A stretch of 64,000 bases of DNA from an uncultured Flavobacteriales bacterium (lineage in GTDB: Bacteria; Bacteroidota; Bacteroidia; Flavobacteriales_G; Salibacteraceae), in the NCBI GenBank assembly GCA_937899835.1, contig CALCCE010000250.1, forward strand, positions 1 through 64,000. The letters run 5' to 3'. Position 1 is the first letter of the stretch. Every line of letters starts with the position of its first letter. Below are positions 2,520 to 14,136 of the stretch, piece by piece. The position numbers were made by a program, and so were the translations under genes. The notes beneath the pieces are model-generated. The model saw nothing but the letters and a program-made list of their open reading frames with translations. It searched no databases and had not been told where the DNA came from.

Positions 2520-2999
2520 ACCCCGAAAACCTCCTATTCTCAGGTTATTGCGAACTAAACCGTTAATCCATTTCAGGTTTTCAATCGCATACCACAACCC
2601 TTTCACTTACTGTTGCGGCAATACTTCTGGAATTTTGAATGGTTTTCGCGCAGGAAGGGTGGCATCCAGGTAAACCGATTCGTTGCAGACTTTCTTGCAA
2701 TAGAGCCTTAAAGCGCAAATGAGTTGCTTTTGTGTGGATTAAGCTGACTCTGAATGGCAAATAAGGTTATAAACCCATTTAAAAAGCTCATCTTTTGTTA
2801 TACCACAAAGCATCTTACTGAAGGAGGTATCCTTCCTCTTCAATCAGCATAGAACTGTAAGCCTGAATCGTGTTTTCGCTACAGCGTTTAACTTCCAATG
2901 TTTTCCTAAAGTTTGCAACTGCCTTATCAGCATAGCAATAGCACATTGTTTGATTAGCTATACTCCATGGGCAGGTAATCGAAACAGAATTCAATATCT
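2520..2999 (-). pseudogene. decayed tyrosine recombinase/integrase
   Basis: On the minus strand one frame carries AVANFRKTLEVKRCSENT, which is the N-terminal SAM-like core-binding signature of phage-type integrases. After a frameshift near 2825 another frame reads ITKDELFKWVYNLI, a stop (2739-2741), STQKQLICALRLYCKK, LPARKPFKIPEVLPQQ, a stop (2607-2609), VKGLWYAIENLK and a weak RIGG. This order (SENTI..Y, ST...I.ALR.YY, LP.VLS..EVK.LL.AIEN.K, LRIGE) is that of Bacteroidota tyrosine recombinases. The catalytic C-terminal half with R..H..Y is missing. It is the only integrase-like sequence in the window, and it lies antisense inside the cassette-like array. Confidence 0.55.
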
Positions 3000-3002
3000 T
3001 CG

Positions 3003-3031
3003 ATTATCACATAGTTAGCTACAATTACAAA
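3003..3031 (+). other. attC-like right half-site before 3032 gene
   Basis: GATTATCACATAGTTAGCTA ends in a GTTAGCT core followed by CAATTACAAA and the ATG at 3032. The first part repeats the sequence at the window start. No complementary left arm was found immediately upstream, where decayed recombinase sequence lies. The site may therefore be truncated. Confidence 0.4.
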
Positions 3032-3541
3032 ATGGAATTAATAGATAAGCAAAAAATTGAGCCGCTCTTACCAGTCCTTAAAGTTCTTTGCATTTTATCT
3101 GCATTTGGTACCACCGCATTACTATTATTCAAAGATCTTTATTTCTATGAGTGGTCTGAAAAAAAAGAAACCATTATCTATTCCATTCCAATGGTTTTCT
3201 TGTTCTTCTATTGGATGAAGTTTAAGCTGGACGAGGACCATACTTTTGATTATAGATTAATTGGATTAGATGGACTCGTAATCTTTTTGACTGCAGTGCG
3301 CCTGTTAGGTCTTCTATTTCATTCAGGACATGTATTGTTCCTCACCTATACCTTTCTAACAACCAATAGTATGACCTTTAGAATAATGTGTGTCCCAATG
3401 ATATTAGTAACAGCATATTTCAAAATATTTTACTGGGGTGATTTTGTAACACCGATTGTAGGAGCTGGAATTGCTCTGCCTTTGGTCCATTACAGAAAAA
3501 AGGTAATTGAAAGATTAGGAACAGTAGCTAACAAAACCTAA
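3032..3541 (+). CDS. small membrane protein of unknown function
   Basis: 169 residues with about four or five hydrophobic segments (near residues 13-33, 47-63, 80-100, 105-130, 138-155) and a basic C-terminus. I recognise no family. It is AT-rich, lone and same-strand with its neighbours, and starts 16 bases after a GTTAGCT half-site. Its last codons run into the GCTAAC arm of the next attC-like site, an arrangement typical of integron cassettes. The gene looks intact: one ATG, no internal stop, coherent membrane topology. Confidence 0.6.
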   Translation: MELIDKQKIEPLLPVLKVLCILSAFGTTALLLFKDLYFYEWSEKKETIIYSIPMVFLFFYWMKFKLDEDHTFDYRLIGLDGLVIFLTAVRLLGLLFHSGHVLFLTYTFLTTNSMTFRIMCVPMILVTAYFKIFYWGDFVTPIVGAGIALPLVHYRKKVIERLGTVANKT

Positions 3542-3578
3542 AATGCATTAAAACGCAGTTGAGCCAAAAAGTTAGCCA
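3525..3578 (+). repeat. attC-like site with GCTAAC/GTTAGC arms
   Basis: TAGCTAAC at 3525-3532, inside the last codons of the upstream gene, is the inverse complement of GTTAGC at 3571-3576. The whole site is about 54 bases, close to the roughly 57-base lower limit usual for integron attC sites. After GTTAGCC come about 10 bases and then the ATG of the next gene at 3588. No associated coding sequence explains the symmetry. Function as a recombination site is inferred. Confidence 0.5.
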
Positions 3579-3587
3579 CTAATTAGA

Positions 3588-4115
3588 ATGAGCATAGAAG
3601 AATACATAGCGGCAATGCTCCCGATGGTAGAGTTACTTGATCGCGAAAAGAAAGTGAATCCTAAGGGCTATAAAAAGAGGCAGCTTTGGTACTTATACCG
3701 ACAATACTTTTATGGCTTCGCAGAATTTATAGACAGAGAGATTCTTTTTAATGCTTCGAAAAAAGCGCAAACCGAGTTTGAAATTCAGCAACCAGGAAGA
3801 AGACTTGTAAATCAAGATTGGAAAGATCAACCTCAATTTGATCAAGGAAGGAAGATTTTCAATTTAGACCATATCTACACTGGGGAAATGTTTAGAAACG
3901 CGGTTGACACCTTGATATCTGAAGATGAATTGTCAGTGGAAAAAATTGCAATGCTCATCAGAAATAATTACCGAATGGCATGGATACTAAAGGACGAAGA
4001 ACGCAGGTTGCATAGATCAAAAAGAGGGAAAACTTTAAATGACGCACTTAAAGAATATAGTAAATGTGAAATTGTTCTGGAGAAAAAAGAAGAAACAGAG
4101 GCCAACAAGAGCTAA
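3588..4115 (+). CDS. hypothetical soluble protein (175 aa)
   Basis: A charged, apparently cytosolic, mostly helical protein without signal peptide or membrane segment. A central stretch FNLDHIYTGEMFRNAV is followed by MLIRNNYRMAWILKDEERRL. The D-H pair and the WILK-E-E segment recall parts of HNH-type nuclease neighbours, but I cannot place it in a family. It starts 10 bases after a GTTAGCC half-site. Its TAA stop lies inside GCTAAACGC, the left arm of the next attC-like site. The tight fit between gene and repeat arms supports a mobile cassette. Confidence 0.6.
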   Translation: MSIEEYIAAMLPMVELLDREKKVNPKGYKKRQLWYLYRQYFYGFAEFIDREILFNASKKAQTEFEIQQPGRRLVNQDWKDQPQFDQGRKIFNLDHIYTGEMFRNAVDTLISEDELSVEKIAMLIRNNYRMAWILKDEERRLHRSKRGKTLNDALKEYSKCEIVLEKKEETEANKS

Positions 4116-4269
4116 ACGCCATTGAATCGAGCTTCGAATGAACGGCAGTGCAAAAACACACTTTGCTCCTTGTACCTCAATTCAAAAAATGTTTTGGAAG
4201 CTGGCAGAACTGCTTTGTAAATCTATCGGACGGTAGTGGGTCATGAAAAAAGATTGAACTGCGTTTAGC
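4111..4269 (+). repeat. attC-like site with perfect 9-bp inverted ends
   Basis: GCTAAACGC (4111-4119) and GCGTTTAGC (4261-4269) are perfect inverse complements at the two ends of the intergenic segment. The sequence just before (GCCAACAAGAGCTAAACGC, 4102-4119) resembles 2051-2070 after the SymE-like pseudogene. The interior holds no ORF. The following gene starts at 4293 after a short AT-rich leader. Size is about 159 bases, slightly above the usual attC range of about 57-141. Confidence 0.55.
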
Positions 4270-4292
4270 CAGAAAGTCACTATCCTTTTAAA

Positions 4293-5693
4293 ATGAAGAT
4301 ATTTCTGATCCTATTACTTCTCCTCTCACTAATTACCTCAGTTTTTGGTCAAACACACTATGTATCTGACGACGACAAGCAGTATTTAGAACATGTAAAG
4401 CAAGGTGAGCACACCTTCAAAAACCACTTAAAAGACGGAAGATGGGTGTCGCTAAAATCTCGTAATGATACCACTTCAAAACACATCGTAACTTATATCA
4501 AGAACGGACTAAAAAATGGAGTTGAAAGCAGGTATTTTGCTGGGTCTGATAAGAAATACGCAGAAATTGAATACAAAGACGGCATTAAAAATGGTCGCGA
4601 AATTCATTGGAACGGGAATGGGACAGTAAAGACTATTTTGAATTATCAAAACGGTATTCTACACGGACCTGTAGTGAACAACTGGACAGAAGGTGAGAAG
4701 CACTACACCGGCTTTTTCAAAAATGGTTTTCAAGATAGCACCTGGACGTATTGGGAAAATAGCAGAAAAGACACCATCTGGATTTATTACGACGAACCTA
4801 TGAAGCGTATGGAATATAAGTATGTGAATGGCAAAAAATCCCTGTGGAATGCTTGGGGTTACACCGGAACAAAAATGATTGAAAACGGCAACGGAACATT
4901 GGTGCTAAGAGAATATGACATACTAACTACTCAATACACCGGTGGACAAAAAAATGGTTTGGAAACAAGTATGTCCTTTGATAGCACACTTGAATACTCA
5001 AGAACTTATGCCAATGGGTTACTTACAAGTGAAATAACGCACAGTTCTTCTGGTGACACCCTATCTTACTTTAACTTATCTTATCCCTTACCTGTAGTCG
5101 TTGACACAGTAGAAAGGTGGGCAGACGAATACGTTAATCGTGACACCTACAACAAACTAAAATTTGACTATCAACCGAAGTACAATGGTTTGCACTTTGA
5201 GAAATTCAACAACAGAACATATAAATTTAAGGGCAAGTACTCAGATGGTGAACGTATAGGACAATGGTTTTGGTATTACCCATCGGGCGTAGTTAGAATG
5301 TTCACCAACTATGAGACCGATGAATGGAAATACTTTGACAAATCAGGCAATGAAGTCGCAACTGATTTTAACGGTGAGTACATTACCAAATTAACAGAGA
5401 GCTGGTGGTTTTTGAATGACAAAATTGACCGAGATAAAGTCATTCTTTCAATATACAATGAAAACGTTGTGACATTGAAGTTTGTTTTTAATCAAGACGG
5501 AACATATATGCTCAATGACTACTTGGAGTGTGGTAAAGATATTGGTTCAACAGGAGGCGGATGGAACATTATTGGCAATAGACTGACAATTGAATTTCCA
5601 TCACAAGGTGATAATTTAGGGGAAATCAACACTTATAATTTCGAGATAGAAGAAGCAACAGGCAGTCAAATAACTTTGAAAAGAATACAATAA
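4293..5693 (+). CDS. secreted MORN/YwqK-repeat protein
   Basis: 466 residues with a signal peptide of about 19 residues ending before QTHYVS. The body is a run of roughly 20-25-residue beta-hairpin repeats of the YwqK/MORN type, each with a pattern such as YKDGIKNGREIHWNGNG, continuing to about residue 350 (GERIGQWFWYYPSGVVRM). The last 100 residues are different and resemble a small lipocalin-like domain (a WWFLNDKIDRDK opening and a GGGWNIIGNRLTIEF strand). Such repeats are common in Bacteroidota exported proteins and in YwqK-family antitoxins. Two larger chromosomal relatives occur at 30524-33829 and 48482-50176. The position between attC-like sites suggests a cassette origin. Confidence 0.8.
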   Translation: MKIFLILLLLLSLITSVFGQTHYVSDDDKQYLEHVKQGEHTFKNHLKDGRWVSLKSRNDTTSKHIVTYIKNGLKNGVESRYFAGSDKKYAEIEYKDGIKNGREIHWNGNGTVKTILNYQNGILHGPVVNNWTEGEKHYTGFFKNGFQDSTWTYWENSRKDTIWIYYDEPMKRMEYKYVNGKKSLWNAWGYTGTKMIENGNGTLVLREYDILTTQYTGGQKNGLETSMSFDSTLEYSRTYANGLLTSEITHSSSGDTLSYFNLSYPLPVVVDTVERWADEYVNRDTYNKLKFDYQPKYNGLHFEKFNNRTYKFKGKYSDGERIGQWFWYYPSGVVRMFTNYETDEWKYFDKSGNEVATDFNGEYITKLTESWWFLNDKIDRDKVILSIYNENVVTLKFVFNQDGTYMLNDYLECGKDIGSTGGGWNIIGNRLTIEFPSQGDNLGEINTYNFEIEEATGSQITLKRIQ

Positions 5694-5699
5694 AAACGG

Positions 5700-5769
5700 C
5701 TGCTATCAAAACCTGTAGGCAACAGCACCCTGCGGGCCCGAACTGCACATCACCAAAACGTTATAGCAC
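5700..5769 (+). repeat. attC-like site with TGCTAT/ATAGCA arms
   Basis: TGCTAT at 5701-5706 is the inverse complement of ATAGCA at 5763-5768, which lies in the core AACGTTATAGCA. The interior is GC-richer (CCCTGCGGGCCCG) than the neighbouring genes. The segment begins a few bases after the MORN gene's stop and ends immediately before the TTG start at 5771. This is the same gene-site-gene spacing as at 3525-3588 and 4111-4293. Confidence 0.45.
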
Positions 5770-5770
5770 A

Positions 5771-6211
5771 TTGAACAAGATAAATAGGAAAGATTTTTTA
5801 ATCACTGTTTGGAGGAAGGGGATAAAACCAATTTTACTTATTGGAGTTATTTTTTTCTGCGCAAAATTCCTCTACAATGTCTTTACAGAAAGTGGAACTG
5901 AAAGATTTATAACCATACTGACGCTTGGTTTTGGACTGTTGATGTTAACGATGCATCTCTTAGGCCTTCTTTTCAAATCATTGACGGAAAAACTAAATTC
6001 CATTCTTCCAGAATCCATTAAACTTTGGATAAGGATCATTGGAAAAACCTTAAATTATATATCTCCAATAATACTGGGGATGATCATTTATAATTTCTGG
6101 AAAGAAGACTGGATAACGGCTGCAATTGTATTGGGAGTATTGTTGATACAAAAGATAGCAGAAATTATAAAAGAAGAACAGCAGGCTACAACAATGGCTA
6201 AACAACCATAG
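5771..6211 (+). CDS. small membrane protein of unknown function
   Basis: 146 residues. A basic N-terminus is followed by four hydrophobic segments (about residues 19-35, 45-66, 86-106, 112-126) and a charged, glutamine-rich tail. No family is recognised. The start is a TTG two bases after an attC-like core. No better ATG lies upstream in frame, so the 5' end is uncertain. The 3' end (GGCTAAACAACC) resembles the left arms of the other sites, but an IS4-family transposase remnant begins about 60 bases later. Confidence 0.5.
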   Translation: MNKINRKDFLITVWRKGIKPILLIGVIFFCAKFLYNVFTESGTERFITILTLGFGLLMLTMHLLGLLFKSLTEKLNSILPESIKLWIRIIGKTLNYISPIILGMIIYNFWKEDWITAAIVLGVLLIQKIAEIIKEEQQATTMAKQP

Positions 6212-6274
6212 TCACCCTTCGAGATTGGCAAGGCTTTTTAGTAAAAACTTTAGCAGCAATGGTCCTAAGAAGGG

Positions 6275-6647
6275 TTAACCAATAACTTATCTTGGACAGC
6301 AAGTACCATTGCAGACTTATATAAAGGCCCGATGGAACACCGAAGCCTTCTTTAAGGACATCAAACAGCGGTTAAAAATCAAAACCTTCATTGGGACAAG
6401 CCACAATGCTGTGATGATACTGGTTTGGACAGCACTGATTGCTATTTTACTCTTGAAATACTTGCAGAAAAAGTCTCAATATCCTTGGTACTTGCCCAAT
6501 TTAGTGTCCTTTTTGCGGATCAACCTGTTTGTGAAAATTGATTTATGGCATTGGGTGAATTACCCATTTAAACCGCCTGATACGAAATCTAAACAGCTGA
6601 TGCTTTTTCACTATCGAAAAGAGAGAGTACTTGATTGTAATGATTGA
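6275..6647 (+). pseudogene. IS4-family transposase C-terminal remnant, frameshifted
   Basis: The frame starting at 6275 reads LTNNLSWTASTIADLYK. A one-base insertion near 6326 then shifts to the frame giving ARWNTEAFFKDIKQRLKIKT and FIGTSHNAVMILVWTALIAI. This is the IS4 DDE transposase signature around its catalytic Glu (T.AELYKARW.IE.FFK.IKQ.L.IK.F.GTS.NAV..Q.W.A). The N-terminal two thirds are missing. No intact inverted terminal repeats were seen. The remnant marks the right part of the mobile-DNA zone. Confidence 0.7.
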
Positions 6648-8174: not shown

Positions 8175-8360
8175 TCATTGCCCTTAGGCAATTGAAGAAC
8201 GATACAAAGTGGTCCACTTCGGCATACACGTTATGAGCGCCAGTCCTATTGGCAAATGTTCCTGTCTACTCCCAGCAATCCCATTCCGCATTTCACGCAC
8301 ATCAGCCACCGAAGGCATAAGGAAGTCTGACTACTGTTGCCGGGTTAGATCGTTTCTAAA

Positions 8361-8530
8361 CGTGTTGCCCTTTGCTACAGGTTGGGCAACGTTGCCCCCT
8401 TTTCATTTTTTTAAAAGTGTTGCCCCACTTATCGGGTAGGGCAACGTTGCCCCTTTTTGATTTTTCTGAAGGCGTTGCCCCTTTTTTCTCATTTTTAAAA
8501 GTGTTGCCCCTCCACACCCATAGGGCAACG
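8361..8530. repeat. tandem palindromic GTTGCCC/GGGCAAC repeat cluster
   Basis: GTTGCCC pairs with GGGCAAC at 8364-8370/8384-8390, 8419-8425/8439-8445 and 8503-8509/8523-8529, always 13 bases apart. A half-unit lies near 8474. Two of the hairpins run on into another GTTGCCCC, giving the self-complementary GGGCAACGTTGCCC. T-rich linkers with TTTAAAA separate them. Overlapping ORFs can be drawn on both strands, but all are driven by the repeats. The layout is REP/BIME-like. The rest of 8175-8965 holds no gene I can support. Confidence 0.7.
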
Positions 8531-13806: not shown

Positions 13807-13851
13807 GGTTTTACCATTCAGTGAAGCCCATTTTGCAGGGGTTAGATAACC

Positions 13852-13986
13852 GATCGTAGTTGCAAACTACGATCAAAATTCAAGATGATCCCATTTTGCA
13901 AGGGTTGGATAGCGGATCGTAGTTGCAAACTACGATCTGACTTCAAGATGATCCCATTTCGCAGGGTGTAGTTTGCAACTACACCC
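13852..13986. repeat. cluster of three 23-bp palindromes with direct-repeat spacers
   Basis: GATCGTAGTT-GCA-AACTACGATC occurs identically at 13852-13874 and 13915-13937. GGGTGTAGTT-TGC-AACTACACCC lies at 13964-13986. Between them a spacer repeats: TTCAAGATGATCCCATTT followed by TGCAAGGG or CGCAGGG, giving a period of about 63 bases for the first two copies. The third copy matches the one at 11845. No ORF explains these. The whole 13807-14136 gap otherwise contains no gene. The arrangement is REP-like. Confidence 0.75.
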
Positions 13987-14136
13987 TGTTATCCATTTTT
14001 ACAATAGGGTCTTTCCGATCACCGAAGTCGAGAAGCCCGGAATAAATGAAAAAGAAAATGTAGGATGAAATCTCTTTCATTTCGGCTGAGGAAAAGAACT
14101 ACGATCAGAATTCTGGGTTTATTTTTTAAGCAAGGC

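Follow-up and report, generated by a model that had tools for sequence, protein, structure and literature searches.

In integrons of the IntI type the integrase gene lies beside an attI site, the cassettes stand in tandem on one strand, and the attC sites form hairpins in which R'' and R' pair. The crossover is at G^TT, arrays can be very long and dead integrases are common. All of these features recur in the system described here. Classical attC sites carry extrahelical bases, and in Treponema-type integrons the integrase has the same direction as the cassettes.

Integron integrases are defined by an additional domain (PMC9668308, PMC2426708), which in IntegronFinder 2.0 sets IntI apart (PMC9024848), and pseudogenes account for nearly one third of intI genes (PMC2426708). 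For Bacteroidetes the accessible text names only In0 from earlier work and now one complete integron, in Salinibacter (PMC9024848), while the attC models described for 11 taxa do not, in the passages available, include Bacteroidota (PMC8352920). One partly available source states that the insertion is not fully conserved within an integron-like subgroup, which leaves room for prior knowledge of members without it (PMC8138268).

Here we describe a stretch of 64,000 nucleotides (the window), contig C250 of an assembly of 6.9 Mb in 307 contigs. A decayed recombinase fragment in it leads to a widespread and apparently undescribed kind of integron in Bacteroidota, whose integrases lack the supposedly defining domain. 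A search of openly licensed papers, without preprints and covering titles, abstract openings and passages, found no description of such integrons in this phylum.

The integrase remnant and its cassette array

The fragment is the N-terminal half of a tyrosine recombinase, read on the minus strand from 2925 to 2523 (Table 1). A preliminary description of the window had listed recombinase motifs there, broken by at least two stops and a frameshift, with the catalytic half missing and attC-like sites on both sides. The motifs are indeed present on that strand in the claimed order, and the stops are real. So is the frameshift, which DNA comparison with three sister copies resolves into an insertion of 4 bases. 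The former start codon now reads AAG. Truncation falls after catalytic box I, and the flanking attC-like sites are found at 2055-2236 and 3524-3579.

A read-through translation, in which X marks the stops and two frames are joined, matches Pfam Phage_int_SAM_4 with E 2.5e-5 and 25 bits, slightly below the cut-off of 27 bits. Intact recombinases, which come from other genomes and are not built from window sequence, align to the window DNA with a best E of 1.6e-15, and several of the alignments extend to 2532 or 2523. The RIGG motif can for that reason be equated with LRIGE of catalytic box I. An initial suspicion that RIGG was only the antisense of the IS1595 remnant is argued against by the same alignments.

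Table 1. Features at the integrase remnant and the neighbouring arrays (positions in the window)
Feature	Position	Strand	Remarks
Second platform (B), crossover ATCACATA-GTT	1-11	plus	first cassette within 1-1582
ORF of platform B first cassette	29-1582	plus	FGE-sulfatase domain
attC-like site of left neighbouring array	2049-2238	plus	score 63.8
IS1595-family transposase, C-terminal remnant	about 2236-2500	plus	PF12762, E 3.1e-8; right end approximate
Decayed tyrosine recombinase, short divergent class	2523-2925	minus	lost start codon, 4-base insertion, stops 2739 and 2607
Conserved leader and attI-like region	2926-3016	plus	ends in crossover ATCACATA-GTT (3006-3016), G of GTT at 3014
Cassette 1	3014-3571	plus	ORF 3032-3541, no Pfam match
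attC-like site of cassette 1	3524-3579	plus	covariance model E 0.063
Cassette 2	3571-4276	plus	ORF 3588-4115, no Pfam match
attC-like site of cassette 2	about 4098-4278	plus	score 38.7; R' = GTC
Cassette 3	4276-5760	plus	ORF 4293-5693, no Pfam match
attC-like site of cassette 3	about 5699-5762	plus	score 41.7
Cassette 4	5760-6260	plus	ORF 5771-6211
Weak attC-like site of cassette 4	6184-6257	plus	covariance model E 0.82
DDE transposase remnant	6309-6647		PF01609, weak; interrupts array after cassette 4

The remnant is divergent from the cassettes, which begin at a crossover 89 bases from its lost start codon and read away from it. The 9 bases with which cassette 1 starts, GTTAGCTAC, occur again as an exact reverse complement at 3524-3532. 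By the covariance model the two attC signals measured in the window array are weak, and the R' of cassettes 2-4 is partly degenerate. The site of the left neighbouring array has the highest score among all loci in the arm-profile scan; the IS1595 remnant sits between it and the integrase remnant.

Three more decayed copies are present in the genome, at C245:4946-5290, C4:158-408 and C262:24168-24266. The first is 63-65% identical to the window fragment (E 1.8e-36; reverse comparison E 1.6e-30). All four copies have in common a leader of about 110 bases that ends in AAC-TATGTGAT, which is ATCACATA-GTT on the cassette strand. Past the GTT they diverge sharply, and the downstream genes read away from the integrase. 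Counting these four and nine platforms from elsewhere, the first cassette closes with an exact reverse complement of its own first 9 bases in 9 of the 13 platforms of the first locus set. The earlier suggestion that the fragment was once the array's integrase is borne out by the divergent orientation of the fragment and its distance from a crossover common to the four copies.

The decayed integrase of platform B is found on contig C4; with its first 55 bases this contig overlaps positions 1-55 of the window. If this overlap, which is the only evidence, is a true join, the C4 copy is situated shortly before the start of the window. An R'' for platform B was sought within 4 kb of window position 1 and not found. 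No intact integrase of the window's class was found anywhere in this assembly, so the window array looks stranded. Short-repeat families with GTTGCCC/GGGCAAC and GTAGTTGCAAACTAC palindromes occur outside the array at 8340-8530 and 13827-14005; a repeat of the GTTGCCC/GGGCAAC type is also seen on contig C4, beside the integrase copy.

Intact relatives and their place among tyrosine recombinases

With the reading of the C245 copy as query, a match of 1e-12 or better is obtained in 173 of 395 genomes sampled from the phylum. The best foreign relative, G222 (272 residues), is 47% identical with E 6e-46. Like the nearest intact relatives in general, it heads an attC-like cassette array in another member of the Bacteroidota. 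The preliminary description had taken closest relatives that flank attC-like arrays as support for an integron origin, and closest relatives among phage or conjugative integrases without arrays as a refutation. The former outcome is what was found, and the latter was not. In the intact short-class relatives the distance from crossover to start codon is mostly 79-93 bases, in some 113-163.

In the tree, the C245 copy groups with a Flagellimonas xerA and G222 (100/91), within a short class (100/96) that itself falls within a Bacteroidota clade of 66 rows (99/98). It stands in for the window copy, being the closest relative of that shorter sequence. The IntI clade of 24 rows (100/99) is separate. 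It should be noted that the bootstrap is not fully settled. A search of the genome for the XerD family gave seven recombinases, among them separate XerC and XerD; these two and one of a pair on contig C85 fall outside the Bacteroidota clade, and the other four are unplaced.

The IntI-specific additional domain near patch III is missing from the intact relatives, something that the preliminary description had not anticipated; the window copy is truncated before it. The spacing between KDR and HxLRH could be measured in 63 of 72 fetched loci and not in the remaining 9. It is 58-59 residues in 57 of the 63 loci; five others have 61-64 and one has 100, compared with 100 in IntI. In agreement with this, G222 is without most of the residues between the two parts that match in its alignment to 2a3v (24 against 67). 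The intact relatives score 196.7 and 208.4 bits with TIGR02249 and the fragment 88.7 bits, all below the cut-off of 265 bits. With NF040815 (XerA, cut-off 220), G222 scores 225.4 bits and G094 215.8 bits. Judged by domain, TIGR02249 and clade, the intact integrases are not members of IntI.

In domain build and best profile match these integrases resemble XerA and simple Xer-type recombinases (NF040815), and their best solved relative is the XerA structure 5hxy. They differ in being tied to cassette arrays at a fixed side and strand; further, the window's class is not that of the genome's own XerC or XerD.

Name-based scan loci with a spacing of 100 or 118 join IntI1 in one clade. A true IntI with a spacing of 100 does occur in Bacteroidota (locus L199, genome G388), closest to one from Balneolales.

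attC-like sites and array layouts

Across loci, cassettes begin at G^TT and finish in attC-like hairpins. Sites were located with an arm profile trained on the sites of the window, genome G000 and loci L129-L140. It finds 33 sites in 16 sequences and none at that score in shuffled DNA, although the lowest-scoring few are probably false. Because the alignment of the arms allows no gaps, sites that contain a bulged base could be missed. A covariance model (R1) built from the arms without their loops loses long-loop sites and thereby undercounts, giving 3 matches genome-wide although the arm profile scores more; site counts are therefore taken from the arm-profile scan. An Rfam search of seven loci returned no family for the attC sites, only a tRNA. 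A name-based genome-wide search for recombinases mostly brought up other recombinases, with 7 sites scoring at least 22 in 80 loci versus 2 in shuffled sequence.

The stems covary strongly. In 32 non-redundant sites 87.2% of the cells are paired (63.3% shuffled, 27-39% slid), double changes number 142 where 41 are expected, and the covariation score is 0.566 versus 0.128 for shuffled stems. At two stem positions the top strand almost invariably has A.C, which corresponds to G.T on the bottom strand: this orientation is seen 112 times and the opposite 10 times (62 of 67 non-redundant sites), a significance that takes no account of shared ancestry. The asymmetry favours folding of the bottom strand and would be expected if that strand were the folded substrate. 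In contrast to IntI integrons, the arms as aligned contain no bulged base and carry these two fixed positions.

To relate the sites to the integrases, 70 of the 72 loci were placed by clade; L150 and L157, with open frames of 194 and 51 residues, were excluded. The 30 loci of the short class, to which the C245 copy of the window's integrase belongs, have 36 sites 5' of the integrase and reading away from it, compared with 1, 3 and 0 in the other combinations of side and strand. The rest of the clade comprises 31 loci, mostly with integrases of 345-460 residues, and was defined as its fetched loci minus the short class, five being unresolved at the clade base. Here 33 sites lie 3' in the direction of the integrase and 0, 0 and 0 elsewhere. 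When the 12 training loci (L129-L140) are removed, the counts are 14, 0, 3 and 0 for the short class and 32, 0, 0 and 0 for the others. Towards the array, the contigs of L148, L130, L149, L181, L183, L172, L191 and L152 stop about 50-1000 bases from the integrase, as though attC repeats break assemblies, so arrays are probably undercounted.

A similar picture is obtained from the first 9 bases of the cassette, which recur downstream as a reverse complement on the 5' side in 20 of 27 short-class loci. The rule is unmet in seven, and scrambled controls (5/27 and 6/27) and the other side (4/28) indicate that some of the 20 will be due to chance. On the 3' side it holds in 17 of 20 of the other loci of the clade (3-4 of 20 when scrambled). 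The nine loci outside the clade gave no attC-like sites of this type in the arm-profile scan. The nine include L199, a true IntI. On the 3' side, six of the eight that could be tested follow the rule, which suggests that these are related systems with another type of attC; further attC types may therefore exist. Recombinases just beyond the clade without attC of this type are those of L164, L167, L177, L185, L194 and L200.

The long class, about 345-460 residues with an extra N-terminal part, resembles Treponema-type integrons in having its array 3' and in the same direction. The clearest case is plasmid pPP2 of Persicobacter psychrovividus (NZ_AP025294.1), whose integrase, unlike the Treponema type, has no IntI-specific insertion (spacing 59). 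An intact copy of this gene, spanning the record start, stands at the head of 116 attC-like sites within 94.5 kb, every one of them on the same strand and 0 on the other; the shuffled control gave 1 site, and no Persicobacter site was used in training. The R'/R'' pairs are exact in 87 of 115 cassettes and have at most one mismatch in 108, whereas random pairing is exact in 6.7%. A search of openly licensed papers gave none on Persicobacter and integrons. Many sites at 310100-404592 of pPP2 (L210, L212) flank repeated cassettes that are about 600 bases long, lack annotated genes and have AGAGATAAC or AGGAACAAC as R''.

Cassette movement and the origin of the remnant

Two genomes of one genus, G094 and G066, are homologous over 9.2 kb, a stretch that runs across the integrase and attI and ends at GTTG; different cassettes follow, after which homology resumes. 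A plasmid of Flagellimonas marinaquae carries an intact integrase with 82% identity to G222; next to it come attI, a cassette in which erm(F) lies antisense, and then another cassette. Homology between the erm(F) cassette and one in a Riemerella anatipestifer plasmid extends from GTT to GTT, with an internal gap; in the latter plasmid it is preceded by an estT cassette that has an attC of its own. It recurs, whole or in part, in 16 plasmid records, including Bacteroides, Sphingobacterium, Myroides and Salmonella.

Comparison of sequences thus documents natural cassette replacement and one cassette both at an attI and behind an attC, in addition to the layout of the platforms and their common crossover, the pairing of R' with R'', the covariation of attC and the strand asymmetry. 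From this evidence alone we infer integrase-dependent excision and insertion of cassettes. That the integrase itself recombines, on folded single strands and without the IntI-specific domain, is also an inference. By every comparative test made the system appears integron-like, yet the intact integrases, without the insertion and in a separate clade, fail the tests of IntI membership; activity has not been shown.

In the proposed mechanism an intact integrase would join circular gene cassettes to an attI-like site that lies upstream of the integrase gene, at a distance of about 89 bases. The substrate in the cassette would be the folded bottom strand of attC, cut at G^TT, and the newest cassette would adjoin the integrase. 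On the sequence evidence the window fragment is the former, now dead, integrase of the adjacent cassette array. As a whole, a dead integrase of the array at about 3014-6260 together with this attI/attC mechanism is an explanation in which we have high confidence, though there are no recombination data.

The preliminary description had left room for an unrelated integrative element, or a prophage, that landed in the array. Decayed mobile genes do lie on both sides (IS1595 and DDE remnants), and distant phage integrases match weakly. However, the best phage match among those listed is 29.6% identical with E 5e-8, far weaker than the 47% and E 6e-46 of the array-linked relative. Tree and layout contradict such an origin, as the closest relatives are linked to arrays at a fixed side and strand, and one leader and crossover occurs in four copies, each with genes reading away; we find the idea hardly credible. 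It is very unlikely, too, that the arrays were moved by homologous recombination or transposition, with the integrase a passenger or a dif-type Xer protein. The profile match to XerA and Xer-type recombinases would fit that proposal, long repeats among the attC sites could serve homologous recombination, and Riemerella naturally takes up DNA according to the part of PMC13148043 available. Against it, the breakpoints coincide exactly with G^TT, at the two ends of cassettes as well as at attI, XerC and XerD are encoded separately in the genome, and the uptake of aph(3')-IVb is described in that same part as occurring without flanking homology (PMC13148043).

Harder to dismiss, although we regard it as unlikely, is that the sites recombine as double-stranded DNA, the hairpin being incidental and the system only outwardly integron-like. 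Without the IntI-specific domain the known means of reading a folded strand is absent. What speaks for folding is the strong covariation of the stems across 32 sites and the placement of mismatches, which lets only the bottom strand pair well. The dead integrase of a cassette array remains our reading of the window fragment.

A broader proposal seems to us probable, with considerable room for error. It holds that a second major lineage of integrons exists in Bacteroidota, whose integrases handle folded single-stranded attC without the IntI domain; the bottom strand would be marked by two fixed G.T pairs and not by extrahelical bases, the layouts would be two (divergent and in line), and the lineage would supply human-associated Bacteroides with resistance cassettes, erm(F) among them. 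Were this true, the IntI domain would not be required for integron recombination and would likely be a later addition in one lineage. The accepted link between domain and mechanism would need revision if folded strands are recombined without it. Integron surveys would miss the lineage, because they recognise the integrase by the IntI-specific domain.

For Riemerella, the accessible part of PMC13148043 describes how aph(3')-IVb, with an attC-like tail of 140 bases, was inserted without homology, names no enzyme, states that the authors' tool detected no integron and calls the mechanism "not yet fully elucidated". The system described here offers a testable mechanism for such homology-free capture of resistance genes with attC-like tails. 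A role of tet(X) as a cassette of this kind was considered but is not claimed: an attC precedes the gene, but no R'' was found behind it. Cassettes with erm(F), estT and a DHFR-family gene and attC of this kind were seen in a Flagellimonas plasmid (L201), a Riemerella plasmid (L221) and loci L206 and L207.
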